A DNA stretch of 43,179 bases, taken from assembly GCA_025349905.2 (NCBI GenBank), contig MU624600.1, forward strand, positions 1-43,179, read 5' to 3'. A model generated the notes under the pieces. That model was not told the origin of the DNA and did not search any database. It worked only from the letters and a program-made list of their open reading frames with translations. The stretch comes from Blastocladiella britannica. Lineage: Eukaryota; Blastocladiomycota; Blastocladiomycetes; Blastocladiales; Blastocladiaceae. Of this stretch, positions 1,551 through 21,799 are shown piece after piece (positions within the stretch are counted from its first letter, which is position 1; each line of letters starts with the position of its first letter). The position numbers and the translations under genes were made by a program.

Positions 1551-4500
1551 TCACATCCCTCCAGCACCACCAGCTTGGGGCAAGAACGATGGCGGCGGCG
1601 TCCCTCCCGGCGGAGGCTGTGCGCCAGACCCCGCGTTAAACACATCTACGTAGCGCGAGCGGCCGCGCATGTTGCGGACCGAGCCGGTCGCCGGACCAGG
1701 CGGTGGCGCACCCTCACCAATCAGATCCTCAATCGACGGCCGAGGGCGGACGCGCTGCTGTTGCGATCCACCCGGCGACGTACTGCCGCCGGCCGACGAA
1801 GGCGCGGGCGACGCCGCCAGCGGCGGAAGACCCACCACACTGCCTGGTCGTGGCATGGACGGACCAGCATGACCAGCACCAGCAAACGACGACGGGGCAA
1901 ACGACGACGCCGAATTCATGGGAATCATGGGCGCCGGCGACGGGCCAGCATTGGGTGACCCGGAGCTCGACGGCGGCAGCGACATGCCCGCCGGCGCATT
2001 GGACGAAAAGGACGGCGCCGGCAACGACACGCGCTGTGATGGGGCGGCGGGGCTAAACGGTGGCGGCGGCATCGGACCGGCATTCGGGGGTCCCGTCTGA
2101 GGCGGCCCAGATCCCATGGGCGGCGGCGTCGATCCCATCATGGGCGGCGGCGCAGACGGACCAGAAGCCGCGGCGGCAGCGCCATCCGAGCCGGCCGAGC
2201 CGTCGACCCACTTCTTCAGGTCCTTGTCAAAGTAGAACGTGTTTTCCTCGCCCAAATTCGCCTTGACGGGCGGCGGTGTGCCATCCTTGGGCTTTTCCTT
2301 GCCGCTCAACAGCCCCTTGAAGAGGCCAAACATGCCGCCCTTGCTCTCAGAGGCCGATTTTTTACCATCGCCCTTGGGCGAGTCGGCCTTGCCATCGTTC
2401 GCCGCCGATCCATTGGCAGACCCAGACGAGGTAGCTCCCGTTTCCTTCTTTTTCTTGAGACTCGAGTTGCCAAGCCCGAGATCGTCCCACTCGTCGGGAC
2501 CGGCATTGGTGGACTCTTGCGGTGCGGCAGGCGCGGTCGCACTCGTTGCTGCCGCATCGGTGGCGATAGGCCCGGGAGCATAGGGCGATGCTGCGCGCGC
2601 GACCGGCGGGTTGAAGGGCTGCGGAGAGAACGACCGCGCTTGTTGAGGTTGCTGCTGTTGTGCCAGCGGCTGGCCAAACGGCAGCGGTGCCGGGGCAAAT
2701 GCAGGCGCAAACGAGGGCTGGTTGTGGCCAAAGGACGGCACCGTGGGGGACGCCACCGGTGGCACAGATGGCGCACGAGCAGGCGCCTGGAAGGGAGACC
2801 CGCTGCTGGTGCCGGCGGCCGCATTGCACGGCTGCATCGCTGGTGGGACACCTGGCGCGCTGGTCGCAGCGGCGGCGGGCGAAAAGCCGGTTGGGCCCTC
2901 TGGGATCGACGCCGGCAAGTTTGTACCATAAAATGAAGTGCCGCCACGCTGGGACACAGTGGGCGACGGGGCACGACCGGGCACGCCATACATTCCGGCG
3001 GCGGTGGGTGCGGGTGCCTGGCCCTGGAACGACATTTGGCTCATGCGGCGACTAGAGTCCATGCTCGCCATGCTCGCCAGTCCGTTGGGAACGTGCGAAG
3101 CGGTGCTCATGCGGCGGCGCACCTCCTGCAGGGTTTGGCCAAACAAGGCGTCGGACATGGCCTCCTGGTACGCGAGCTCTTCGTTGTACGGGAAGGCGAC
3201 ATCCGTTCGCGGTGAAACCGCACTCAAAATGTCCTGGCCCGCGGGCGTCAGGGCCAACAGTCGTCGTACATCATCGCTGGTGACACCGGCGCCAATGGAG
3301 CGCGCATACCACACGTCGGCGTGCACTGCCGTCTGGTTCTCGACAGCGAGCGCCTCGGGACCCATCATCGCCTCGGTGAGCTCCACCAGGGAGTGCAGTT
3401 CCTTGAGCACCGCTGGGAGGAGTACATTCGAGTCGCGCGCGAGGAGCCACGCGGCAGTGAGCATGGCGCTGCGCACGTAGTTGCGCGCCGGCACCGCGAA
3501 GCTCCCAGCCAGCAAGCGACGAGCATGCGCAAGCTTGTACCCAACCAAGTGCGGCAGGGCCGCTACATCGAGCGGGAACGGAACGGGGCCAGGGACCGTG
3601 GCGTTGGCGCCGAGCGGGCCAGCGTCGCCCGACAACACCGCCAGGCAAAACTCGACCATCTCGGTCAACAGGAGCGCCTCCGCGTTGGCGTGGAATGTGT
3701 TTGCGCTGCGCAGGTGCGCGGCGCTGACCAGCACCTGGTGCGTTGCAGCGCGGCCAAGCGCGCCGTACAGCGTCGGGCCAAAGTATGCGGTCCCCACCGG
3801 CTGAGCCACCAAATAGCACAGGGCCGCCGCCTCGGTACGGCCGTACGCGCACAGACGGTCGCCGAGCATGGCCAAGGCACGGTGCGTGTTGGCGCCGTTG
3901 CGGTGCGTCAGCACCAGCACCAATACCTCCCGCCACCAGTTGAGTTGGGCCGACGTGGGCGTAGCGGCATTGGCATCGGATTGGAGGAGCAAATAATCGA
4001 CCGCGGCAGCCGCCCACTCCAGCTCTCCATTGGCGGTAATGACGGTCAAAAAGAACTGCAGCGCTGGAACGCACGGGCGCGAGACCTGGAGGTCAAGCGC
4101 CGGGAACTCCCAGCTGGCATCGTGCGCCATGGAGTCGCCCACCAGGCCGTGGCGCGCAAACAAGCCGTTCACGCGCGCCCACACGTTGGGAGGACAGCGG
4201 GCACCAAGCGACAGGGCGGTCGCCCACTGGTTGGTGCGCACCGAAAGCTCGACCGCGTCGACAATGTGGCCCGGGTTGAGGAGCATGTTGTACAGTGGCA
4301 GCACCGCCGGGTCCGCTGCTGCCGTCGTTTCTGTTGCCTCCAGGTCGGTTTCGGCAAGGTGCGCGCGAAGCACGTTAGCCGCCACCACGTCGGCTGGCTG
4401 CCCCAAACCGCTCGTAGACATGAGCGCGTTCACGACCTGGAGGAGCAGTCGCCGGTCAACCAGGTGGTGGTGCGCCTCCGATTCCACCTCGGACGCAGAC

Positions 4501-7500
4501 GATGCAGCAATCGCCGCGGACGTGGCACCCTCTTGCGAAGCCAGCCAGTCGCACGCCACCCGGCGCGCCTCGTCCACGGACACACCAGGGCGAAGCACTG
4601 GTCCTGGAAGTCGTGCAAGGTCAGAAGTGGTTGCGTCCGCAAGCGGCTCAAACCGAATCAGGCCAGGGAACAGCTTGGTGATGGGCTTGACCACTGTTGG
4701 ATCCGTGGAATAGCGAAGCGTCGCCTTGGGGAACGAGACCACCATTGTGCCGCGCGGCGAAAAGGCAATCACGGGCACCTTGCTCCCAATGAGGTGCAGG
4801 TGGAACGGCCCGCGGACAGTCGGGACTGCCACTGGCGGGGGCGTCCGCGGATACGAAATCTTGGGAGGCGGCGCCGAGTCCACCAGGGGGCTGCCGCACC
4901 ACGCACAGAATCGGCCGCCAGCGGGACCAAACGTGCTGCAAGTTGAGCACTTGATGGGTAAGGGTGCAAGCTGACGCGATGCGGCGCGCGAGCTCGCTGG
5001 GCTGCCTCCACGGATCGGGGACGTCAGCGGGCTTTCGTCACCAACACCAAAGGCACCCGCCGTTGGGGTCATAGAGCCCGTCGTGTCAAAGGACCGAACG
5101 CTGGCACCCGAGGAGGGACGCGAGGGAACTTGGACCGAGAGCCCGCCAGCCTTGCCCAAAACTGGCTGGGGCGCAACTGGAGAAATGCGCTGGCCGTCGT
5201 ATGGCGAGCCCGGCACGGCGCCCCATGCAGGAACACTGGGCGGCGCACTCCACGCCGGCGCGGTGGGCGGTGACGTCGGAGCAGGCGGTGCATGCGGTTG
5301 AGGCGACGAAGGTCCGCTTGATTTGCCCGATGTGTGCACCGGTGAGAAGGATGGCTGAGGCTGGTACTGATTCGACGCCATGGGCGGTGCCGGCATGGGG
5401 CCAGGCGACCGGGAGAGCGGAACAGACGGCGGCAGCTGTTGCATCTGCGGTTGCGGTTGCGGTTGCTGTTGTGGCTGCGGTTGCGCCTGCATCTGCGGGA
5501 GTGGAGGCGGCACGAATGCACCCAGCCCGGGCGGGGGTTGTGGCGACGTCGCCGGGCCCGCCAGCGGCGAGAACGAAGGGACGGAGCTCAGACGTTGAGG
5601 CGAAGGCAGGCGCTGCGGCGACGGCAGGCGGTGATGTTGCGGCGAGATGCTGCGCTGTGGCTGTACCAACGTCGCGGTGGGCGGCATTGACAGTGAGGCT
5701 GTGGGTGGCGGCGGGACTGTTACATCAATCAAGTGAGCGACTTGTGAAGTGAAAAAAAAAAACGCGGCAGTGGCAACGTACATTGCATATCCATATGCGC
5801 TGGCTGGGGCGGTGACTGAGCGTGTTGCTCCCAGCGAGTCGGGGAAGCTAAAATACAAAAAGTGTGGTGAGAAAGTTGACATGGAAAAACGAAAAGAAAT
5901 ATGCGCACCAGGACTGTCGTTCGGGTAGCCCTGATAGGCAGGCGACTGATGCGGATGGTAATCCATGTGTTGCGGCGCAGCAAGGGGGCTCGTCGCAACA
6001 GGAGCTGCTGGCGGGTAGAAATCATGCTCGTGCTGCAGGGGCGGCGGGTGGGCAAACCTTTCATGTGCAGGCTCCGGCGAAGTCGTTGGATAGGGCCCGT
6101 ACACGGCCGCATATGCTTGTTGCTCTTGCTCTGACCCAAACTGGTGGTGTTGCGCAACAGAGCTAAACACATCTTCAGAGGCACTGTGCCAATCCTGCTG
6201 CGGGCCTGATAGGGAAGACGATTGTGCTACAGGGAGCGGCGCGTGCTGCTGTTGGTCCGCAGTCGGTTGCGCATATTGTTGCTGCTCTTCGTGCTGACCC
6301 GCAGCTTGCTGGTACTGCTGAGATGGCGAGTGCGCTGGTTGGGGCGGAGACTGGGGCTGTGCCGTCGGCGACCACGACTGGGCAACAGGCTCAGGGCTCT
6401 TGGCCGGCGCGTGCGTGGGCACTTGAACCGGGCTCCAAGACGATGCCGAAAAAGGCTGGGGTGCAAATGCCGACAGGTCCACTGGGGCGGCAGGAGCAGT
6501 GGTCGCAAGAGTGGAGTGACTGGGCGGGGAGGCAGCTGGCGCGGGAGCATGCATAGGCGACCAGTGGGCTGGGGGTTGTTGACTGTAGGCGACATCCTGG
6601 TGGACTCCAAAAGCGGGCGGGGCAGGCGGAGACGAAGAAGGCAGGTGCTGCGGGGATGCAGGGGGAAGCGCATGCTGTGGGGGCGATCCAGAGGGAAGTG
6701 CGTGATGTGGGGGTGACGAATAGACGGCCGCAGCAGCATCGGGCGACCAAGCGTGGGCAGGAATGGGGGCCCACGGTTGCTGCTGTAACGGTTGTGCGAG
6801 TGGCGCCGATGCGACACCGGCGAACGCAGGGCTCGTGGACACGGCAGTTGCCGCTGCTGTGGGAGACAGTGAAACCGAACCGCCATAAACCTGTGCAGGA
6901 GCACCCGGGGAAAAGGAAGCAACTTGCGAGGAGTGCGATGGCGATCCAGCAGCGAACGAGTGCGGCGGCTGAGCAGCTGGCTCGCCTGCAAACTGCGTTT
7001 CCTGCATCGAGAACCAATCCTGGGCCGGAGCACCAAACGGTGCTGGGTTGCCAAACATGCTGGAAGGCGCTGGCGCACTCACTGGCACCTGTGCCGTGGC
7101 GGGAGGAGCAGGCGGCAAGAAAGTGGCAGGCGAAGCTCCCATAAAGTTGTCCTGGGGCGAGACGCTGCGTGCTGGTTGAGGAGGCGACTGGCTAGTATGG
7201 GGAACTGCAGGTGGTGCTGCCGCAACTGGTGCCGAAACTGCAGCCACGGGCGCTGGCGAAATCGCACGAGGAGGCGGTGGCGGTGCTGAGACCACAGGAC
7301 TGGGAACGCGTGCATGTGTCTCTGGAACGGGCGCTGCCTCTGGGGACCACCCAGACGACCACGATGGCTGCGGTGGGGCAGAGGCAATGGGCACAGCTTT
7401 ATGGGCAGGCGGTGCAAATGCGTCAAATGCCGACGACGCTGCAGCGGGAGCCCATGCAGGTGCGGGAGCCGATTGAGCGGTCCATGTCGCAGTGATCGGA

Positions 7501-10076
7501 GGCGAGGTGGCTTTTGGCGGTGGCAGCACAGGTTGGGTCGCAAATGTAACAGGACTGAGTGCACGAGGGGCGAAAAGATCGTCGTGCGCGGATGGAGCGG
7601 ACCAGCCAGCAAACGGAATGGGCGCGGCCTGCGCAGGAGGGGATGCAGCCACAGCAGCCGTAGTTGGCATGACAGGCGCAAAGTGAGCAGTCGGCGGTTC
7701 AATATGAGCTGTTACTGGAGCGGCAGGAAATTCGTCCATGGGCGGCTGAGAGGCCAGCGGTGGTGCGGCGGGCGAGGGTGCTTCAAAAACGGGCAGTGGA
7801 ATGGCAGCTGCAAAGACATCGGGGGCGCCAGCAGAGAATGAAATTTCAGGCACAGCAGCCTCGGGCGGCGGGGGCACCGTTGACAATGGCACAATTGCTG
7901 CATCTGCCGGCGGGGCGTCGACAGCAGGCAGGCTGACCGCATCAACCAGACCGTCCTCATCGGCGCGCTCGCTTGGCACTGCAGGCCCAGGAGTCGCATT
8001 GGCATCAGGCGCAGAGGGCGCGACCGCGGTGGAACTGGCGCCAAGGTCTTCCGGGACTTCTTCCTCCTCGTCCCAGCCCCAGTCAGAGTCCGTGTTGACA
8101 TCTGCCGCGTGCTCGGAATCGGCAGCGTTGGCCTGTGGGTGCACTGGAGCAAGCATGTCCTGGGAAGAGAGCCAGGTGGCGGGGTGGTCGAGTGTGGAAT
8201 CGACGGGCACTTGGGACTGTGTCTCTGCCACGGGAGTGCGATCAGCGGCAACATCAGGAGATGACGCAACAGGAGCAACGGGTGCAATGGGCGCGGCCGT
8301 GCCAGGGCCCGGGACTGGGTCCCATGCCTCATCTGCAGCCTCGGCATCGTCCCACCACGAGGCGTTTTGGGCGGGAACGACGGGCGCCACCGCGACTGGC
8401 TGTGCTGGAGCTGGCGGAACAGGCGCCGATAGGGCAAATGGTGCCGCGGCAGGTTCCGCCTCTGTGGTGGGTGCTGAAACCTGTTCCGGGACTGGGACCA
8501 TCGTCACGGGCGCCTTTGGTGGGGAACCAAATAGCTCAGTCAAAGAAGGGTAGCTGGCAGGGGCTGCAAACGGAGAAGGAACGGCTGAAGTCGGGGTGGG
8601 TGGGGTGGCTGCAATTGTCACAGCGAGCTCGGGGCCAGTCGCCAGGGGCACAGGCGGCGCGACGGCCACGGAAACGGGCGGCGGCGGCGGCAGCGACTCC
8701 AAGGCCACTGGGGCGGAAGGAGCAGCGACGCTCGCCGCAGGCGGCAGGGCGTTTGACACGGCTGAGTCAAGCATCACCTCTTCTTCCTCCGGTTGGTCTT
8801 CGACACAGATAGCGCGACCTTGCTGCTCAACCGCTGCCACGCCAGCATCATGATCGAGAGCACTGGGAGTAACAGCGGCGGGTGCGTTGTGGCTCGCGGT
8901 CATAAACAGGTCGATCGCCGCGTACACTTGACTTTCCTCTGGTCGCGGCGGCGGCGAGGCGGGTGCAGCGGGCGTGGGCGCAGTCGCGGTCACGCCCGTG
9001 GATCCAGGCATGGGCCCAAATGATTCAAAAAACGAGCCGCCATGGGGGACGCCGAGCGGCTTGGAGGCAGGGGACAGCGGTCCGGGAGCCGAGACGCCCA
9101 TGGCAAATGGGTTGGCGCCAGTTGCTAGCGGGCCGACCGACGGCGGGCGCACAAACGGCGACGCACCCACGACCGCGGGTCCGCCAAAGGGAGCGGCCGA
9201 CATGGGCCGCACAACGGGTGACGCCGGCACAAATGATCCGGTGGTCGGTGCCGCAGCGAATGGGTACGGAGCAGCCGTGTTGACCGATGGGGCAGTCGAT
9301 GCCGGCCGCGATCCGGGAAGCGACGGCGGCAGCGCGGTAGAGGCGGCAGCTGCGAAGGTGGTCGATCCGGGCCCTGCAAACGGCACTGGTCCGGAAAAAG
9401 TGTTACCAGCACTGGTCGGGGCTGCACCACCACCAGGATTGCCACCAAACGGGTTTCGGGCAGTCGGCGGCGTCGCAGGCGGCGGAGCAGCCGATCCAGC
9501 GGGACCAAGTGCGCCGCCGCCCCCGAGGAGCGACGAGAAAAAATCGTCCGTGGACGGTACGCGGACGGGGGCAGCATTACCCTGAGCCGAGATCGAGCCC
9601 GATCGCGAGCCCCACGCCGGCGAGGCAAAGGGAGACGCGCTCACCGGGGGGGTGTGCGATACGGGAGCGTTGGCGGCGCCTCCAAAGAGCGCGGCGGCGT
9701 TGCCGAGAGCTGTAAAAAAAACGTGAGGACTGGTCTGGCTGGCAAAAAAAAAAAGAGCAAATCGCGTACGAGTGACAGTGCGGAACGGAATACCGGCAAC
9801 GGGCGCAGCAGAGCCAATGCCGCCGAATGGAGCAGCGGTCGAGAACGAGCCCGAGCGACTAAAAGACGCGCGTCCACTTCCGCCGGCGCCCATGGCAGGG
9901 AGGCCGGGGGCAAAACCCGCGGCAGGCAGTTGCTGCTGCTGATGCTGCTGCTGAGGGTGCTGAGTGGGATCGGCACCAGGAGCAGGTCGCGTGCCACCAA
10001 ACAGGTCGGACGCCGAGGAAGAGCGCGAACCGCCGCCGCCAAATAGGGACGAGGCGTCCGCAAAGGGATTGGACAT
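1551..10076 (-). CDS. SEC16: SEC16-like COPII coat scaffold protein
   Basis: Scaffold that organises COPII coat assembly at ER exit sites. Four-exon model: 10076-9770, 9709-5909, 5847-5782, 5716-1551 (introns of 60, 61 and 65 nt; the last two bracket a 66-nt exon and together restore frame), about 2779 aa. The first 1,640 residues are Pro/Ala/Ser/Gln-rich and probably disordered. A CxxC...CxxC zinc-ribbon-like pair lies at about 1648-1670. The central conserved domain begins near 1690 with HLIGSKVPVIAFSPRG, and the helical Sec16 C-terminal domain spans about 1810-2230. The conserved tail near 2517-2567 contains LGEENTFYFDKDLKKWV, a SEC16 hallmark. The first intron could instead be 84 nt (9710-9793), also in frame. 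Antisense open frames across this gene are composition artefacts. Identification is firm; exact N-terminal splicing is less so. Confidence 0.9.
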   Translation of the reverse strand: MSNPFADASSLFGGGGSRSSSASDLFGGTRPAPGADPTQHPQQQHQQQQLPAAGFAPGLPAMGAGGSGRASFSRSGSFSTAAPFGGIGSAAPVAGIPFRTVTRTRFALFFFASQTSPHVFFTALGNAAALFGGAANAPVSHTPPVSASPFASPAWGSRSGSISAQGNAAPVRVPSTDDFFSSLLGGGGALGPAGSAAPPPATPPTARNPFGGNPGGGAAPTSAGNTFSGPVPFAGPGSTTFAAAASTALPPSLPGSRPASTAPSVNTAAPYPFAAAPTTGSFVPASPVVRPMSAAPFGGPAVVGASPFVRPPSVGPLATGANPFAMGVSAPGPLSPASKPLGVPHGGSFFESFGPMPGSTGVTATAPTPAAPASPPPRPEESQVYAAIDLFMTASHNAPAAVTPSALDHDAGVAAVEQQGRAICVEDQPEEEEVMLDSAVSNALPPAASVAAPSAPVALESLPPPPPVSVAVAPPVPLATGPELAVTIAATPPTPTSAVPSPFAAPASYPSLTELFGSPPKAPVTMVPVPEQVSAPTTEAEPAAAPFALSAPVPPAPAQPVAVAPVVPAQNASWWDDAEAADEAWDPVPGPGTAAPIAPVAPVASSPDVAADRTPVAETQSQVPVDSTLDHPATWLSSQDMLAPVHPQANAADSEHAADVNTDSDWGWDEEEEVPEDLGASSTAVAPSAPDANATPGPAVPSERADEDGLVDAVSLPAVDAPPADAAIVPLSTVPPPPEAAVPEISFSAGAPDVFAAAIPLPVFEAPSPAAPPLASQPPMDEFPAAPVTAHIEPPTAHFAPVMPTTAAVAASPPAQAAPIPFAGWSAPSAHDDLFAPRALSPVTFATQPVLPPPKATSPPITATWTAQSAPAPAWAPAAASSAFDAFAPPAHKAVPIASAPPQPSWSSGWSPEAAPVPETHARVPSPVVSAPPPPPRAISPAPVAAVSAPVAAAPPAVPHTSQSPPQPARSVSPQDNFMGASPATFLPPAPPATAQVPVSAPAPSSMFGNPAPFGAPAQDWFSMQETQFAGEPAAQPPHSFAAGSPSHSSQVASFSPGAPAQVYGGSVSLSPTAAATAVSTSPAFAGVASAPLAQPLQQQPWAPIPAHAWSPDAAAAVYSSPPHHALPSGSPPQHALPPASPQHLPSSSPPAPPAFGVHQDVAYSQQPPAHWSPMHAPAPAASPPSHSTLATTAPAAPVDLSAFAPQPFSASSWSPVQVPTHAPAKSPEPVAQSWSPTAQPQSPPQPAHSPSQQYQQAAGQHEEQQQYAQPTADQQQHAPLPVAQSSSLSGPQQDWHSASEDVFSSVAQHHQFGSEQEQQAYAAVYGPYPTTSPEPAHERFAHPPPLQHEHDFYPPAAPVATSPLAAPQHMDYHPHQSPAYQGYPNDSPGAHISFRFSMSTFSPHFLYFSFPDSLGATRSVTAPASAYGYAMYVATAAFFFFTSQVAHLIDVTVPPPPTASLSMPPTATLVQPQRSISPQHHRLPSPQRLPSPQRLSSVPSFSPLAGPATSPQPPPGLGAFVPPPLPQMQAQPQPQQQPQPQPQMQQLPPSVPLSRSPGPMPAPPMASNQYQPQPSFSPVHTSGKSSGPSSPQPHAPPAPTSPPTAPAWSAPPSVPAWGAVPGSPYDGQRISPVAPQPVLGKAGGLSVQVPSRPSSGASVRSFDTTGSMTPTAGAFGVGDESPLTSPIRGGSPASSRAASRQLAPLPIKCSTCSTFGPAGGRFCAWCGSPLVDSAPPPKISYPRTPPPVAVPTVRGPFHLHLIGSKVPVIAFSPRGTMVVSFPKATLRYSTDPTVVKPITKLFPGLIRFEPLADATTSDLARLPGPVLRPGVSVDEARRVACDWLASQEGATSAAIAASSASEVESEAHHHLVDRRLLLQVVNALMSTSGLGQPADVVAANVLRAHLAETDLEATETTAAADPAVLPLYNMLLNPGHIVDAVELSVRTNQWATALSLGARCPPNVWARVNGLFARHGLVGDSMAHDASWEFPALDLQVSRPCVPALQFFLTVITANGELEWAAAAVDYLLLQSDANAATPTSAQLNWWREVLVLVLTHRNGANTHRALAMLGDRLCAYGRTEAAALCYLVAQPVGTAYFGPTLYGALGRAATHQVLVSAAHLRSANTFHANAEALLLTEMVEFCLAVLSGDAGPLGANATVPGPVPFPLDVAALPHLVGYKLAHARRLLAGSFAVPARNYVRSAMLTAAWLLARDSNVLLPAVLKELHSLVELTEAMMGPEALAVENQTAVHADVWYARSIGAGVTSDDVRRLLALTPAGQDILSAVSPRTDVAFPYNEELAYQEAMSDALFGQTLQEVRRRMSTASHVPNGLASMASMDSSRRMSQMSFQGQAPAPTAAGMYGVPGRAPSPTVSQRGGTSFYGTNLPASIPEGPTGFSPAAAATSAPGVPPAMQPCNAAAGTSSGSPFQAPARAPSVPPVASPTVPSFGHNQPSFAPAFAPAPLPFGQPLAQQQQPQQARSFSPQPFNPPVARAASPYAPGPIATDAAATSATAPAAPQESTNAGPDEWDDLGLGNSSLKKKKETGATSSGSANGSAANDGKADSPKGDGKKSASESKGGMFGLFKGLLSGKEKPKDGTPPPVKANLGEENTFYFDKDLKKWVDGSAGSDGAAAAASGPSAPPPMMGSTPPPMGSGPPQTGPPNAGPMPPPPFSPAAPSQRVSLPAPSFSSNAPAGMSLPPSSSGSPNAGPSPAPMIPMNSASSFAPSSFAGAGHAGPSMPRPGSVVGLPPLAASPAPSSAGGSTSPGGSQQQRVRPRPSIEDLIGEGAPPPGPATGSVRNMRGRSRYVDVFNAGSGAQPPPGGTPPPSFLPQAGGAGGM

Positions 10077-10631
10077 ATTTTATGTTCGTGCTCAAGCTGG
10101 CCAACGTGCAGAATAAGGGTCAGCTCTCAGTTAGAAAAAATATTATGATAAACAAACCAGAGCCAACGAAAACGAGGTCAGGCGCAGAGCAAAATATTTA
10201 TCGAGGAACTAGTAGATGGGAGAAAAAAAGAGGTATCAAGAAAATGGCAGGCCAGGGCCGATCAGTTGTTGTTGTCCGAGGAGCGTGCGCTGGCGTTGTG
10301 GGTTCACGAAAGAGAGAAAAAAAACATGAACAAAAAAAAACGCGAGAAACGCCACACAGCAGTGCCTGCCACGTCGCCCAGCAAAATCCATTCCTCGGAT
10401 CGGATCCTCCATCCTTCTTGCACCCGAAACACAAACAGGCAATGAGCTCCAACGGCACTTGTTTGAAATCGGCAACTGCAACCACTTGCCTTTGTTGGCC
10501 TCCGTCGCAGTCGCAGGGATGTAACTATATATATTTTCGACATTACCCCACCGGCCGGATCCACTCCCTGTGAACCTTTTATATACGTATTCTGGAAACC
10601 ACCATCGATCACAGTTGGATTGTTAAAAACA
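10077..10631. promoter_or_regulatory. Divergent intergenic region, SEC16 / 7TM paralogue B
   Basis: 555 bp between two divergent start codons, so it should hold both promoters. It is AT-richer than its neighbours. TATA-like runs occur near 10524-10533 (tatatatatt) and 10577-10585 (ttttatata), the latter about 50 bp before the ATG at 10632. A-runs lie near 10134 and 10318. No RNA gene or credible ORF is seen. Confidence 0.5.
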
Positions 10632-15297: not shown

Positions 15298-18200
15298 ATG
15301 CCGGTCGCAATGCCCACACGAGCGACAAGCGTGCGCGTGCCAGTGAGGGTCCTCTCGCCCAAATCAGACGGCCTGCCTTTTGAGCATCCAGAGACGGCCG
15401 CTTTTATCGATCCTGACGAGCTGTTTTCAGCCGACTTTTCGCCGTCCAGCGCCGTCCCAGGCTCGGGTCTCTCGCCCTCCAGCCCCCTCGTCCTCTCTCG
15501 GTGCTCTAGCGCGCGAGGCATGTCGGGCCATGGCAGCCAGAGCCTCGGATCACCAACTGCGCTTTTGCCTGGCATATCGGGATCCAAGCTGGGAATGCCT
15601 GCGCGCCGCGAGTCCATCTATTCTCGATCAGCCCTATCTTCCGCTGCAGCTTCCTGGACGCGCATGTCAGGACCACCGCCAGAGCCTGCGCCGGAGCTCG
15701 TCGCCGAGGACAATCAGGGCGGAGCCATTATGGGAAGCATCATGCAATTTGGGCGGATTCAGTCGCAGCAACCTCGCGTCGCCGCAACCAATGGTGATCC
15801 TGAGCGTGCAGTGGCCCAGCCAAGCGAGTCCACCAATAATTCCAGCACTGGAACCATTGACCTCCGCTCCAAAGAAGGAAAGGCGACGCTATTCACGAAT
15901 TACATGTATTTCCTTGCTTATTTTTTTCGTCATGGGGCCTTTTTCTAACCTTTACTCAACTTTTTCAGGCATATGCGCCAGGAACGAGCACTGAAAAACT
16001 GGCAAAAACACTCGATCGCCTGGCAAACCGCAGAGGAAAAACTTGCACAGGGTCTTGGCAAGGTACATCCATTCATTTTTCACTGGTTTGCGGATCCATA
16101 TATGAAAATGTAAAAAAAATCGCAGGTTCCGCTCATGTCAAAAACCCACTTGTACCGTGCAAGCGTCGAGCAGCACCATTTGATCGAGGAAGCGATTTGC
16201 GTTCTGGAGGCGCACTATGATTACTGGTTGCGCGGGCTGCGTATCGGTCATGACTTGCTTGGGCTCAACTTTCCGCTCCCTCCTCAGGGTCCGCGACCGC
16301 TCGAGCGAGTCGCCTGGCCGCTTGATGCGAGGAATTCTGGTCCCGACTCGAAACTGGGCCCAGTACCAACCTACGAGGACGGACTGTCGCGAAACGAGCG
16401 CAGCTACCTTGAAAAGCGGCGTGCGGAACTTGAGCAGACCATTTCCGCGTTGGACCCAGCAGGAGGCCGCACGCATGCCCGCGACCTGGCTGGCATCTCC
16501 ATTATCGGGCAACGCATCAGCTCTGCATCGACTGCCCGCGCATCCAATGTGGATGCCCGCCTTGCTGCGACCATGTCGCGCGAAATTCAAGCTCGGCTCT
16601 CCGCCACCACCACCGCGTCGGCTTCTGCTTCAGAAAAGACTGCCGTCACTGGAGCGGCCTCTCAGCTGTCGCAACTTCGATCTCCCTCCAAGGCGTCGGT
16701 CAAGCACGAAAAGACACACCTCCAGCTCTCAACGGCGACCATTGCCTTTGACACTGCTCCTGACCAGGTGGCAGCGTCTTGCGTTTCCGTGTACAATCCC
16801 ACTGATTGCGCTATTCGTTTCAAGTGGGTCCACCATCGACCCGAGCTGCAGTTTGGCTCGCCGGGTGCCGCACTCCCAGCGACAAACACCGAAGTCGTGT
16901 ATTTGCCGGTCCGCAGCGGGATCCTTCTCCCACAATCGGCATTCGATTTCCACGTCATGTTCAAGGCGCCGCGGCCTGGCTGGTATGTCGAGGAATGGGT
17001 GTTGGAAACCACCCCCAAGTGTTGCGTTTCGATTGTTGGGTCTCCCGACGTTGGGCATGGGCGAATCAAAATTTCGGTATACTCGTTCTATTTTGTCCCA
17101 TTTGCTTGGTTCGCTACTGATACTTCTCTTGTATATGTTTGTGCAGGGAGTATGCACGGAAGAAGATTCCACCAAGACAGCTCGGGACGCATGGTTTGCA
17201 CAGCTCACGCGCGATACGTGCGTGCTCCTTTTTTTTTTTTTTGCCCGCGCACGCATGATTGTTGACATGCTCAAATCATGCTATTTTTCAGGGCACTGGC
17301 GGCTGCACGGTCCGTTATCGAAACTATGCTTGACAATGTATGGCTGTCGGCCGAGTCCAAGGCGCGCGGACCAGCCATTTCAGCTGAGCAGGCCACATAT
17401 GCAGGACGAAACTCTGATTATCAGGTATGCCTCTTTCCTCCATCCTCAAAATGAGGCAAATTGACAGTGTATATGATATATTTCTAGCTCCGGTACACGC
17501 CGCAGTTTGTTGCACAACTGCGAGGCGTCCACGCATCGATCTTGTCGGATCATCTCCACCTGGATCCCAAGCTCGAGCCATGGGACCTGCGCATTGCCTC
17601 GCTCTTCAACATGACCGAGTTTATCATGGACACAAGCGCCCGCGAGCAAGTGCTCCGCGATCTAAACGAGATGCTGGCTGCCCACGAAGGAGTCGGTACC
17701 ACTCCCACACGGCCCGACGGGTCGGCCGGGTCCACCATGATCCGTCGGGCACCCCTCTCAGCCGAAGCTCGACGGCGACGGACGGCGGCAGCACGCGCCT
17801 GGTGGGTCGAGGCGCTGGACCGAATTGGCGACGACATTCCAAAGCTGCGCCGTGGCATGGGCTTGCCCTGTGGGCCCGAACGCGCTTGCATCCGCAAGTT
17901 CCAAGTCAGCGAGGAGGAAGCGGCAGTCTTTTCGGCTGGCAGCCCTAGTGGTGCCAGCGACGCCAAGTCGGCCTCGACCGAGAAAAAGGGTGCTGTTGAC
18001 AGGAAAGGCGTTCGTACTTTCGCGCTTTATATTTACCTTGGTACGATCAGTGCTGATGTTTTTCCGTGTAGGGCACCGGCAAGGACGCTGGAAACGCAAA
18101 GGCAGCCTCCACACCCGCCGCAGGAGGTGGTAAAGGGTCTGGCAAAGACTCCAAGGGCATTACTGGAGGTGCCGCCGGGGCCACCAAGGGTGGGACTGCG

Positions 18201-18622: not shown

Positions 18623-21600
18623 ATGAACCAAATCAGAGTATATATTCGACTTGCCACACTCCTGGTAGCAGTATGGATGGTCAATGCAGCTGCCCCGATC
18701 CAGCTCCAAGTGCCATCTTGCCTCCCAGCGAACGTAGTCAAGCGATTTGGTTGGCAAACTCCCACCTCTGGTATCGCTGGCCAGTCGTTTTTGCAACAAC
18801 CACCTGCGAATGTGATCCTGGAAAGTGATGGATGGGCTTCTGCGAATCTCACGGGATATGTGGCCGCAATGCTGCTTAACGACGTGATGGGCGTTAATGT
18901 GACCTTGATGCAGTACCCTGGTTCTCGCAACTCATATGTTCGGCCATCGACGGGCGAAGTGCAAGTGAATGTCGAAATTTGGCCCAAGCAGTCGCTGTAC
19001 ACTCAGTATGTGACGCAAGATGGAACCGACGCGGATTGTGCGCGTCCCCTTTTCTTTTTGAATGGCCAATGTTGATCAGCCTCCCTCACTCGTTAGCGAC
19101 CTAGTTGGACTGCTGGGATATGTCGGGAAAATCTCGTGGTACATCAACACTGCCGTTGCAAATGCGAATCCAAATATAATCATGGTCAGTCTGCTATTGT
19201 ATTATATTTGAGGCAGGATGTGCGCTCACCATTCGTGTATTTGTATAATGTGGGTAGGACTCTTGGCGGTCGTTCTCTCAGCAAGCGGTGCTCAACTTGC
19301 TTCCGCCTGTGGGCAGCACTCCGCTCAAGCGCAATGCCAAAGGCGACCTTCTTTGCACATCAGCTGCTGGCTACAACTTTTGTGGAACCGATGGCTATTT
19401 CACGCCACCACAGTGCCAAGGTGCTTTGCGCTCGCAATGTCGCGAGTTCTGGCACCCGGACCCCAGCTACTCGCAGGGGCAAAATGAGCAGCGAATCGTG
19501 ACCCTTGGACTGAAGCTCGTCGTTGCTTACGTCGGTATGCGGCTCCTTTGCATTCATTAAAGCAGTCGATTGGTAAGATGATTGAATTGATGTCTGTAAT
19601 GACACACCATAGGTTACGATGAGATTCAGACCTTGTTCGCAGCATGCGCTGGACAATCGGCGACTGCCTGCGTTGGGGTGCGCCAACGTTTCCTCATTCT
19701 CAAATTTGGTTCTAGCTCACCCAATGAAATGGCAGTACTGGTGGAAACCAGAAGTGCTGCCATCGATTGCCGATCTCACGACAGTCAACCTGCCTCCATA
19801 TACTGCGACATGCTTCAGCCAGTTTGACTATAACAAAGTTGGGCAGGTAGGAAACAGCCTGAGCTGCGACTGGCCCATCATTGCGCTCATGAAGCTCGGC
19901 CAGGCATCGCTTGGCACCACCGCACCGCAAGTCACCATGTTGCTCAAGTCTATTTCGTTTTCCGACATTGACATCAACTTGATGCTGGCTGACTACGCGC
20001 AACACGGGTCCGATACGATTGGCGCTGCCTGTCGATGGCTCACTGCAAACCAAAATGGATGGCAAAGCTGGATTCCCAAGACCCCACCTGGCTATCGTAT
20101 GTATACCTTGACTTGTACTTTGTGAGCAATCCAGTATATTTATGAACTGGACATATGCAGTGCGATCCCTTGATCAAATATCCCCAGGCGAGGCGGTTGC
20201 CATCGTCGTTTTGATTCTGGCGGCCTTGCTTCTGGCCCTGGTCATATCGTTACTTGTCTGCTTGTACAAATTGCGCCTCGCACCGCTTGTCATTGCCCAG
20301 GCTCCTCCTTTCATCGCAGCCATTGCCGTGGGCGTGCTCTTTATTGGTCTGGACGTGATTCTCGAGACGCTGACGCCAACGTCTGCCGTTTGCACGCTCC
20401 AGACCTGGGCAATGTATTTGGGCGGATTTCTCGTCCTGGGCAGCATCTTTATCAAGACGATCCGCATTCGGCTCATTTTTGGTAACCAGAAACTTCGCAA
20501 AATGAACCTCAAGACGGCAAGGGCACTCGCAGTGCTTGGCGGAATCATGACCATGGCTATCCTCCTCCTCGTGGCATGGACCCTGACCGCTCAGCCCATG
20601 CCAAGCACGAGCATCGTGTCTGATACCACATTTACCTACTCATGTGACACCAGCGACTCGATGGCGTCCAAAGTCATTACTCTGCTACTCTTCGTCTCGC
20701 TTTCGGTGCTTTTTGTGTCTGATGTTGTGCTTGGGTTTCAGGTCCGCAATGTGGATACCATGGTACGCACGTCATCTGGTGACTTATTGCAGTGGTACTG
20801 ACGATCGACCTTGCTTGAATGCAGTACAACGAGAGCAAGTACATTGCCAATGCCACCTACGCCATTCTGATTGCCGCCGCTATTGCGCTTCCAGTCGCGC
20901 GCCTCGGTGTCCACTTCCGAGTACCTATTCCTCGTTTTTTTCTTTCTGAAATGACCGCCATCGCGTTGCGGCACTGACAAAGACATAAAAAAAAAACAGG
21001 TGAATTATATGGTCAAGAACCTCTTGACCGAGATTGCTGCATTCACAGTCGTAGGAATGCTGGTTGCCCGCCCTTTGGTTGAGGCGTACGTGGCTGAAAA
21101 ACAAAAGGAGAACCCGAGTGTGTTCACCCCTCAGCTCCGAATGGTCCGAGGTTCACGGGCAAATCGAAAGTCAATTGCAGGCCGTGTCTTTGGTGCTGCG
21201 TCCCCAACCGAGTCCAAGCTCAATCTGGACGACGTACGATTTCCTTCGGTCTCATTTGAATTTCTGCCAACTCACACCAACAAGTTGTACTAGGCGGTCA
21301 TTGCGGGCCAGGGATTTGCGATCCAGAATCAGTTCGGTATTTTCCGGCCATGGACTCAGGTTGATCTTGTCCTTGTGCAGCAGCCGGCACCGGCCATTTT
21401 GATTGTGCCAGCTGACAAGGTACGCGTATTGTCTTTATGCGGTCCACCCGCCATGGAATTAACAAAAAGTCAACATAGTCATTCCAAGGACGTGTATTCA
21501 CGGCCCATGTCTCTGCTTCTCTGCCTCCAGAGGCAACTCAGTCATCGGTCCCTGGAACATTCCTGCTCACATTCCGAGCCAAACTGTTTTTGGTCCAGGC

Positions 21601-21799
21601 ACAGGATGCAAGTGGTGCTCAGATGTGGGTTGAAGCCATCAACAAGTGTTTTACGCATGCCAACCTCCGGGCGCGCAAGAACACTGAGTCGCGTGGTGCC
21701 GCATCTGGGGAGAACTTTTCGCAGCCGGGATCGATCAAGGAAAGCAACAATATGATCAGCGACGCCAATGCAAGCGAGAAGCAGCTCTCTCCCAAGTAG
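18623..21799 (+). CDS. Class C GPCR with OpuAC/ProX-like ectodomain and C-terminal PH-like domain
   Basis: Ten-exon model: 18623-19009, 19080-19184, 19258-19534, 19613-19677, 19736-20096, 20161-20762, 20825-20920, 21000-21233, 21294-21419, 21479-21799; introns 58-79 nt; 857 aa. A signal peptide covers residues 1-23. Residues about 24-400 resemble the glycine-betaine/choline-type periplasmic binding family (ESDGWASANLTGYVAAMLL, VQVNVEIWPK, GYVGKISWYIN, YWWKPEVL...LPPYT). Seven helices at about 408-660 carry class C hallmarks: Cys at the top of helix 3 (AVCTLQTW), a Cys in loop 2 (YSCDT), and the helix-6 signature NESKYIANATYAI. Residues about 705-800 look like a PH domain, ending in the typical W-containing helix (AQMWVEAIN). 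Expected role: plasma-membrane sensor of a small amine or amino-acid-like ligand. The first donor (19010) is the least certain junction. Confidence 0.82.

Follow-up and report, generated by a model that had tools for sequence, protein, structure and literature searches.

The window analysed here is a stretch of 43,179 nucleotides from Blastocladiella britannica, contig C61 of the 624 contigs (15.3 Mb) in the genome searched. A receptor gene occupies 18623..21799 of its plus strand, from an ATG at 18623 to a TAG stop ending at 21799. Our analysis confirms, at the level of the predicted protein, that this single ten-exon gene encodes a signal peptide, an OpuAC/ProX-type ectodomain, a class C seven-transmembrane (7TM) bundle and a PH-like tail. 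The model, based on splicing, homologues and paralogue introns, retains the start, stop, strand and ten exons of an earlier, sequence-only reading; the length of 857 amino acids given there becomes 858.

All exons lie on the plus strand. Exon 1 (18623..19037, residues 1-139) encodes a hydrophobic signal peptide at about residues 1-22, the start of the OpuAC domain, W71 and W120. Exon 2 (19105..19184, residues 139-165) carries the GKISWY motif and I148, which stands at the position of DmpX E113 and TmoX E131. Exon 3 (19258..19534, residues 166-258) contains the DPSY motif (Y236) and a Cys-rich insert of 38 residues and four cysteines (C198, C207, C218, C226), placed by alignment at 19333..19446. 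The short exon 4 (19613..19677, residues 258-279) is followed by exon 5 (19736..20096, residues 280-400), with YWWKPE (Y280, W282), C305, C323 and the end of the ectodomain. Exon 6 (20161..20762, residues 400-600) encodes TM1-TM5 with C477, K498 and C561, exon 7 (20825..20920, residues 601-632) NESKY (E603) and TM6, and exon 8 (21000..21233, residues 633-710) TM7 and the start of the cytoplasmic tail. The first half of the PH-like domain, with W730, is in exon 9 (21294..21419, residues 711-752); exon 10 (21479..21799, residues 753-858 and the stop) holds its second half, with W802, and then a non-conserved end.

The nine introns are all GT-AG and 58-79 bp long, the first running from 19038 to 19104 (67 bp). 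Junctions were chosen by GT-AG sites and reading frame, and the one between exons 1 and 2 was set from homologues; an alternative junction there, giving 850 residues and an OpuAC score of 21.6 bits, was ruled out by the homologue alignment. Introns were compared with tblastn segment breaks in three same-genome paralogues, mapped on the paralogue P0001, a break in at least one of the three being counted. Seven of the nine positions (residues 139, 258, 279, 400, 600, 632 and 752) match such breaks within a few residues, and no matching break was seen in the three paralogues for those at 165 and 710.

A protein homology search, made with the 850-residue version to which its identities refer, yielded 10 proteins (among the best 7993 candidates scored), 38-47% identical over 88-95% of the query and all, by name, from Blastocladiella, Catenaria or Allomyces. 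Both Pfam domains are listed in one protein for nine of these 10, in line with the earlier claim that the two halves form one gene; P0007 lists PF00003 alone, yet aligns with the receptor along its whole length. Separate genes are excluded by these two-half homologues and by introns of the OpuAC half that are common to the paralogues. Contamination is excluded by the same homologues and shared introns and by the eukaryotic-type neighbours. Indeed, among 18 other frames of the window, the eight with Pfam matches are all eukaryotic-type: Sec16, CAP, MYCBPAP, EXS, UCH, RhoGEF (two frames) and glycosyltransferase family 21. The Sec16 domains lie in an unbroken frame of 2842 residues on the minus strand (1551-10079). 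Upstream of the receptor gene, on the plus strand (16114-17262), is the frame with the match to MYCBPAP, an axoneme-associated family.

On the 858-residue model, OpuAC (PF04069) scored 30.6 bits against a cut-off of 21.2 (E 3.3e-7), and 7tm_3 (PF00003) 105.8 bits against 33.5 (E 3.8e-30). Both matches had been anticipated. The 7tm_3 match, at residues 408-636, falls close to the expected 405-660 or so, while the better of two OpuAC stretches covers residues 64-163 of the roughly 30-390 expected. Seven hydrophobic segments, as in the seven helices of the class C fold, follow the ectodomain. The motifs named beforehand (DGWASAN, VNVEIWP, WYIN, YWWKPE and NESKY) were all located in the protein. 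A type I ANF ectodomain is common, although not universal, in class C GPCRs; no ANF_receptor match was found in Pfam up to E 10, and OpuAC occupies its place.

For the fold, the AlphaFold model of P0001 was used as a stand-in for the window protein. Its mean pLDDT is 83.8, with ectodomain blocks mostly above 90; the domain arrangement is not established by it, because the whole-model pTM is 0.63. Foldseek with this model gave as top matches DMSP-bound DmpX (7yle, 8.3e-14) and TMAO-bound TmoX (4xz6, 1.2e-13), with 3l6h at 7.7e-11 and GABA-B receptors ranking after DmpX and TmoX, so that the stand-in shows the two-lobe, type II fold of solute-binding proteins (SBPs). For the ectodomain, the match depends on Foldseek and on sequence, since the VIA-align rows covered almost solely the 7TM part. 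Pfam, homologues, the AlphaFold model and Foldseek thus firmly support the architecture read from the letters, in which an OpuAC/ProX-type ectodomain takes the place of ANF on a class C 7TM bundle.

The family extends beyond this gene. A profile search found 12 proteins from the same three genera (among the best 7997 candidates scored), six of them new (P0056-P0061); one, P0061 of Allomyces, is an ANF-type receptor. The B. britannica genome holds at least five OpuAC-type receptor genes, on C61 (the window), C104, C525, C531 and, in diverged form, C63; P0001 matches segments encoded on C525 at 99% identity. These genes were recovered with protein queries. The PF04069 profile gave no match on the B. 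britannica contigs, probably because introns split the OpuAC domain. For 7tm_3, there were 47 exon matches on 34 contigs. In Allomyces, the OpuAC receptors P0003, P0008 and P0010 bear the consecutive locus tags GGF31_009023-009025, and P0004 and P0007 the adjacent tags AMAG_14322 and AMAG_14321; consecutive tags, together with the equal lengths of the contigs that carry them, suggest tandem duplication. In B. emersonii, P0057 (1403 residues) is an OpuAC-type receptor model with a long extension past the PH-like tail, which may be a fused neighbouring gene model. The receptors form a real, conserved family, of which the window gene is a further member, and we infer that the fusion is older than the split of the three genera sampled.

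It had been suspected that such chimeras were known in zoosporic fungi, and this is the case. Krishnan et al. 2012 found OpuAC in six Glutamate-family receptors of Allomyces macrogynus (AMAG_01750, 04252, 14324, 14326, 15836 and 17562; PMC3251606), a species of the same phylum whose receptors show the same pairing of OpuAC with a class C 7TM. As far as the accessible text of that account goes, it lists domains and gives neither a pocket analysis nor a ligand inference nor a C-terminal domain. P0004 and P0007 are near those six in numbering but outside them. Class C receptors of anaerobic gut fungi likewise have type II SBP domains on the 7TM bundle, sugar-type in their case and not OpuAC, according to the portions seen of Seppala et al. 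2016 (PMC5168858). Judging from the available parts of more recent accounts, Glutamate-class GPCRs are enriched in Blastocladiomycota and Chytridiomycota (2025 survey, PMC12842992), and the 7tm_3 class is marked as uncharacterised (2026 review, PMC13308352); the GPCR-bigrams of oomycetes carry other accessory domains (PMC5784254, seen in part). The OpuAC-class C fusion is thus already known. What this analysis adds is the pocket analysis, the link to Acidimicrobiia and the PH-like tail: in the literature searched we found no pocket analysis or Acidimicrobiia link for these receptors, and no report of a PH tail, the search being weak on subscription papers.

DmpX and TmoX, which match the ectodomain best in both sequence and fold, are subunits of bacterial ABC importers, whereas the window domain is fused to a GPCR. 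The pocket of DmpX consists of W35, T64, W84, E113, W152, A153, Y200 and W202 (PMC10030565, available text), and that of TmoX of W55, W102, F106, E131, W177, F220 and W222 (PMC8918994, available text). TmoX E131 forms a hydrogen bond to TMAO, and DmpX E113 contacts DMSP via water. In an HMM alignment, DmpX W35, W84, Y200 and W202 fall on W71, W120, Y280 and W282 of the window protein, cage positions common to all three proteins, and E113 falls on I148. That alignment stops short of W152, and the fourth cage residue was mapped via relatives instead: in a wider alignment from which DmpX is absent, Y236 aligns with Trp in 16 of 16 non-Acidimicrobiia bacterial rows. Compared with DmpX and TmoX, the ectodomain therefore has Ile for Glu, Tyr for the fourth Trp (by the relatives' alignment) and the added four-Cys insert.

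These features were followed through 16 fungal rows (the window protein, P0001-P0010 and P0056-P0060). W120 and W282 are invariant (16/16 each), Y280 and Y236 are kept in 14/16 each, and the W71 column has W in 13 rows and gaps in the three that start late (P0010, P0059, P0060). An aromatic cage of three or four residues, W71, W120, Y236 and W282 together with Y280, is thus present by alignment, as distinct from cleft geometry, and by the same alignments the onium cage is kept in W/W/Y/W form in the fungal receptors. At the I148 column the fungal rows have I (11), V (2), T (2) or S (1). The TmoX-specific Glu131 was not found in the window protein, which has Ile at the aligned position.

The 45 closest bacterial proteins (P0011-P0055) all list OpuAC. 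They are stand-alone SBPs, unlike the fused receptor domain, and are 23-27% identical to the window ectodomain; the few informative organism names are Acidimicrobiia or Ilumatobacter. These nearest sequences share the features of the fungal pocket: their cage columns read W, W, W, Y and Y, with I at the I148 column, in 45/45 each, and the DPSY Tyr and the Cys pair C305/C323 are kept in 45/45. The 38-residue insert is absent from five aligned bacterial relatives. Elsewhere the I148 column is polar, with Q in 10 and D in 1 of 11 proteobacterial and cyanobacterial rows and Q in 3 and E in 2 of five other bacterial rows (16 in total: Q 13, E 2, D 1). As far as alignment can tell, the change from a polar to an apolar residue at the Glu position is shared between the fungal receptors and the bacterial proteins closest to them.

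A bacterial genome scan was limited to the best 80 of 150 confirmed loci, chosen by query-alignment patterns and so biased towards the query. In the single neighbourhood read, locus L021, the ORFs after the SBP gene were interpreted by eye as a putative ProV-like ATPase and a putative double permease of the ProW type. An ectodomain tree of 51 rows combined 11 of the 16 fungal receptors, 34 of the 80 loci (36 had been chosen; L069 and L076 were dropped) and six of the 45 proteins. The fungal domains form one branch (100/100) beside Actinomycetota proteins, on a stem of 2.48 changes per column. Such a fully supported branch would be consistent with a single capture. No donor or direction of transfer is claimed, because of that long stem, a root that serves for drawing only and a warning by the tool of long branches meeting.

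The pocket residues point, with moderate confidence, to a methylated onium compound as the expected ligand, and the sensing of quaternary amines or similar solutes, as first proposed, would be consistent with the retained aromatic cage. With I or V at the Glu position, the polar contacts differ and TMAO is unlikely as the ligand. The same receptor could instead have had its pocket retuned to another small molecule, such as an amino acid, an amine or a host or prey metabolite, the aromatics being left as scaffold. The polar Glu is gone, the fungal ectodomain has a long stem and a Cys-rich insert, and five diverged genes in one genome are what ligand diversification would predict. Against this, W120 and W282 are invariant in the 16 fungal rows, and the Ile of all 45 closest bacterial sequences makes the loss of Glu common to both groups rather than a fungal retuning. 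We hold a retuned pocket to be unlikely, although worth keeping in mind, and retain an onium solute as the preferred ligand class.

In the 7TM half, the class C marks of the first reading were recovered, namely the pair C477/C561 and NESKY in TM6. We take C477/C561 to be the TM3-ECL2 Cys pair and K498/E603 the TM3 Lys and TM6 acidic pair. GABA-B2 is the nearest 7TM by sequence, and K498 and E603 align with its Lys and Asp, which form its inactive-state lock. GABA-B and mGlu receptors share the bundle, the Cys pair and the K/E(D) pair with the window protein, whereas their ectodomain is a type I ANF domain. They are not known to carry a PH-like tail. G-alpha exons score above the cut-off on nine B. 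britannica contigs; as a control on 14 genomes, the G-alpha profile gave a match in one and exceeded the cut-off in none. In GABA-B, one class C subunit may bind the ligand and another couple, and the kinship with GABA-B2 would allow a surface receptor without G-protein signalling of its own: a scavenger, a co-receptor or, in an obligate heterodimer, the subunit that binds the ligand. This seems to us distinctly improbable, given that none of the positions K498, E603, C477 and C561 varies across 11 aligned rows and that the genome has G-alpha genes. As for a gene-model artefact, in which a bacterial-type gene or contaminant beside a GPCR gene would have been joined by guessed splicing, it is barely credible in view of the two-half homologues in three genera, the OpuAC-half introns common to paralogues and the eukaryotic neighbours, even though the splice model is sequence-based and the window protein was itself missing from the matches that the first search listed.

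The receptor also has a C-terminal domain that was absent from the sequence-only reading, at residues 715-816. Against Pfam PH (PF00169) it reached 12.7-14.4 bits, under the cut-off of 25.1, and is therefore named PH-like; no receptor tail tested reached that cut-off. Nine of the 10 tails in profile A6 match Pfam PH at E up to 1, the best at 6.2e-5. A PDB search with the profile of 10 tails matched 25 sequences (E up to 10), of which FARP1 (3.3e-6) and a PLEKHA protein (1.7e-5) score best; all 25 are taken, by name or identity, to bear a PH domain. In the P0001 model, residues 723-846 form strands and then a helix, in line with the PH pattern of strands and a Trp-bearing C-terminal helix. The tail is present in four of the five B. 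britannica OpuAC receptor genes; the tail profile found no match in the most diverged, C63 (L101). The tail of P0060 was cut out, yet omitted from profile A6.

Similar tails occur on other class C receptors. Of the 29 further contigs on which 7tm_3 matched, 20 were examined; they comprise 22 7TM genes, and in 11 of these genes the tail profile scored above 10 bits on the correct strand, 3' of the 7TM. Some of the 11 matches are half domains, owing to introns. As controls, reversed ORFs gave at most 7.3 bits and 12,349 ORFs of the 80 bacterial loci at most 7.9. Among others, tails were placed at 2349-2615 in L107, 1503-1787 in L108, 2310-2600 in L111, 2261-2533 in L112 and 4359-4625 in L118. 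The ectodomain type was assigned for five of the 11 genes: ANF matches exceed the cut-off in L107, L108 and L114 and fall below it in L119, and L124 has a weak Peripla_BP_6 match. In L105, with a sub-threshold ANF match, no tail was found. A separate class C group (L106, L109, L110) combines a Peripla_BP_4 flytrap with an EGF-like linker ahead of the 7TM, and the profile found no PH-like tail in it. On contig C463, a class C GPCR with a PH-like tail and G-alpha exons share the minus-strand orientation and are some 2 kb apart (3518-4145, 6453-7572).

The ANF-type receptor P0061 combines ANF and 7TM with an alignable tail, 14% identical to that of the window protein. A6 includes this tail among its 10 rows, though P0061 has no Pfam PH match at E 0.1, and the AlphaFold model of P0061 (mean pLDDT 42.8) was left unused. 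In a 7TM tree of 33 rows, several of them merged exon pieces with gaps, the OpuAC receptors form one branch (93/88) and deep links are poorly supported (48/17). L117 was dropped for too few columns, L104 omitted as equal to P0001, and P0060 and L101 were counted as OpuAC by reading the alignment. Because the tail is common to OpuAC and ANF-type receptors, we infer an ectodomain swap, which the 7TM tree does not settle; the simplest reading would be that a 7TM-PH receptor already in existence acquired the OpuAC domain. In the searchable literature we found no description of a 7TM-PH-like layout with a betaine-type ectodomain.

At a probability of about 0.6, we propose that the window gene encodes a class C GPCR in which a ProX/OpuAC flytrap replaces ANF, sensing a methylated onium solute, coupled to G proteins and carrying a PH-like tail. 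What comes from sequence is the order of the domains within a single gene, the aligned cage, the lock residues, the PH-like tail and the G-alpha genes; the further steps are put forward as a model. The type II ProX/OpuAC domain would stand in for the type I ANF Venus flytrap, and the aromatic cage between its two lobes would hold a small methylated onium compound (betaine, DMSP or one related to them). Ligand binding may close the lobes and move the 7TM bundle via a short linker; the lock between the TM3 Lys and TM6 Glu would then break and a heterotrimeric G protein be activated. The PH-like tail might anchor the receptor to the inner membrane or to signalling partners, or regulate it there. 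A wider view, which we advance tentatively and at a little under even odds, is that the class C GPCRs of Blastocladiomycota would be a conserved 7TM and PH-like chassis with exchanged ligand domains (ANF, and a betaine type captured once), the window receptor being an onium-osmolyte GPCR whose tail couples its state to lipids or G-beta-gamma.

These receptors are a clear example of how a bacterial domain for nutrient uptake can be put to new use as the sensor of a eukaryotic GPCR. They provide a concrete candidate ligand class for orphan fungal class C receptors, with DmpX and TmoX as structural templates. The tail held in common with ANF-type receptors suggests ectodomain swaps on a common chassis, which is relevant to the question of how receptor classes come to recognise new ligands. 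Were the ligand an osmolyte, the family would suggest how such fungi could sense algae, plants or salinity.
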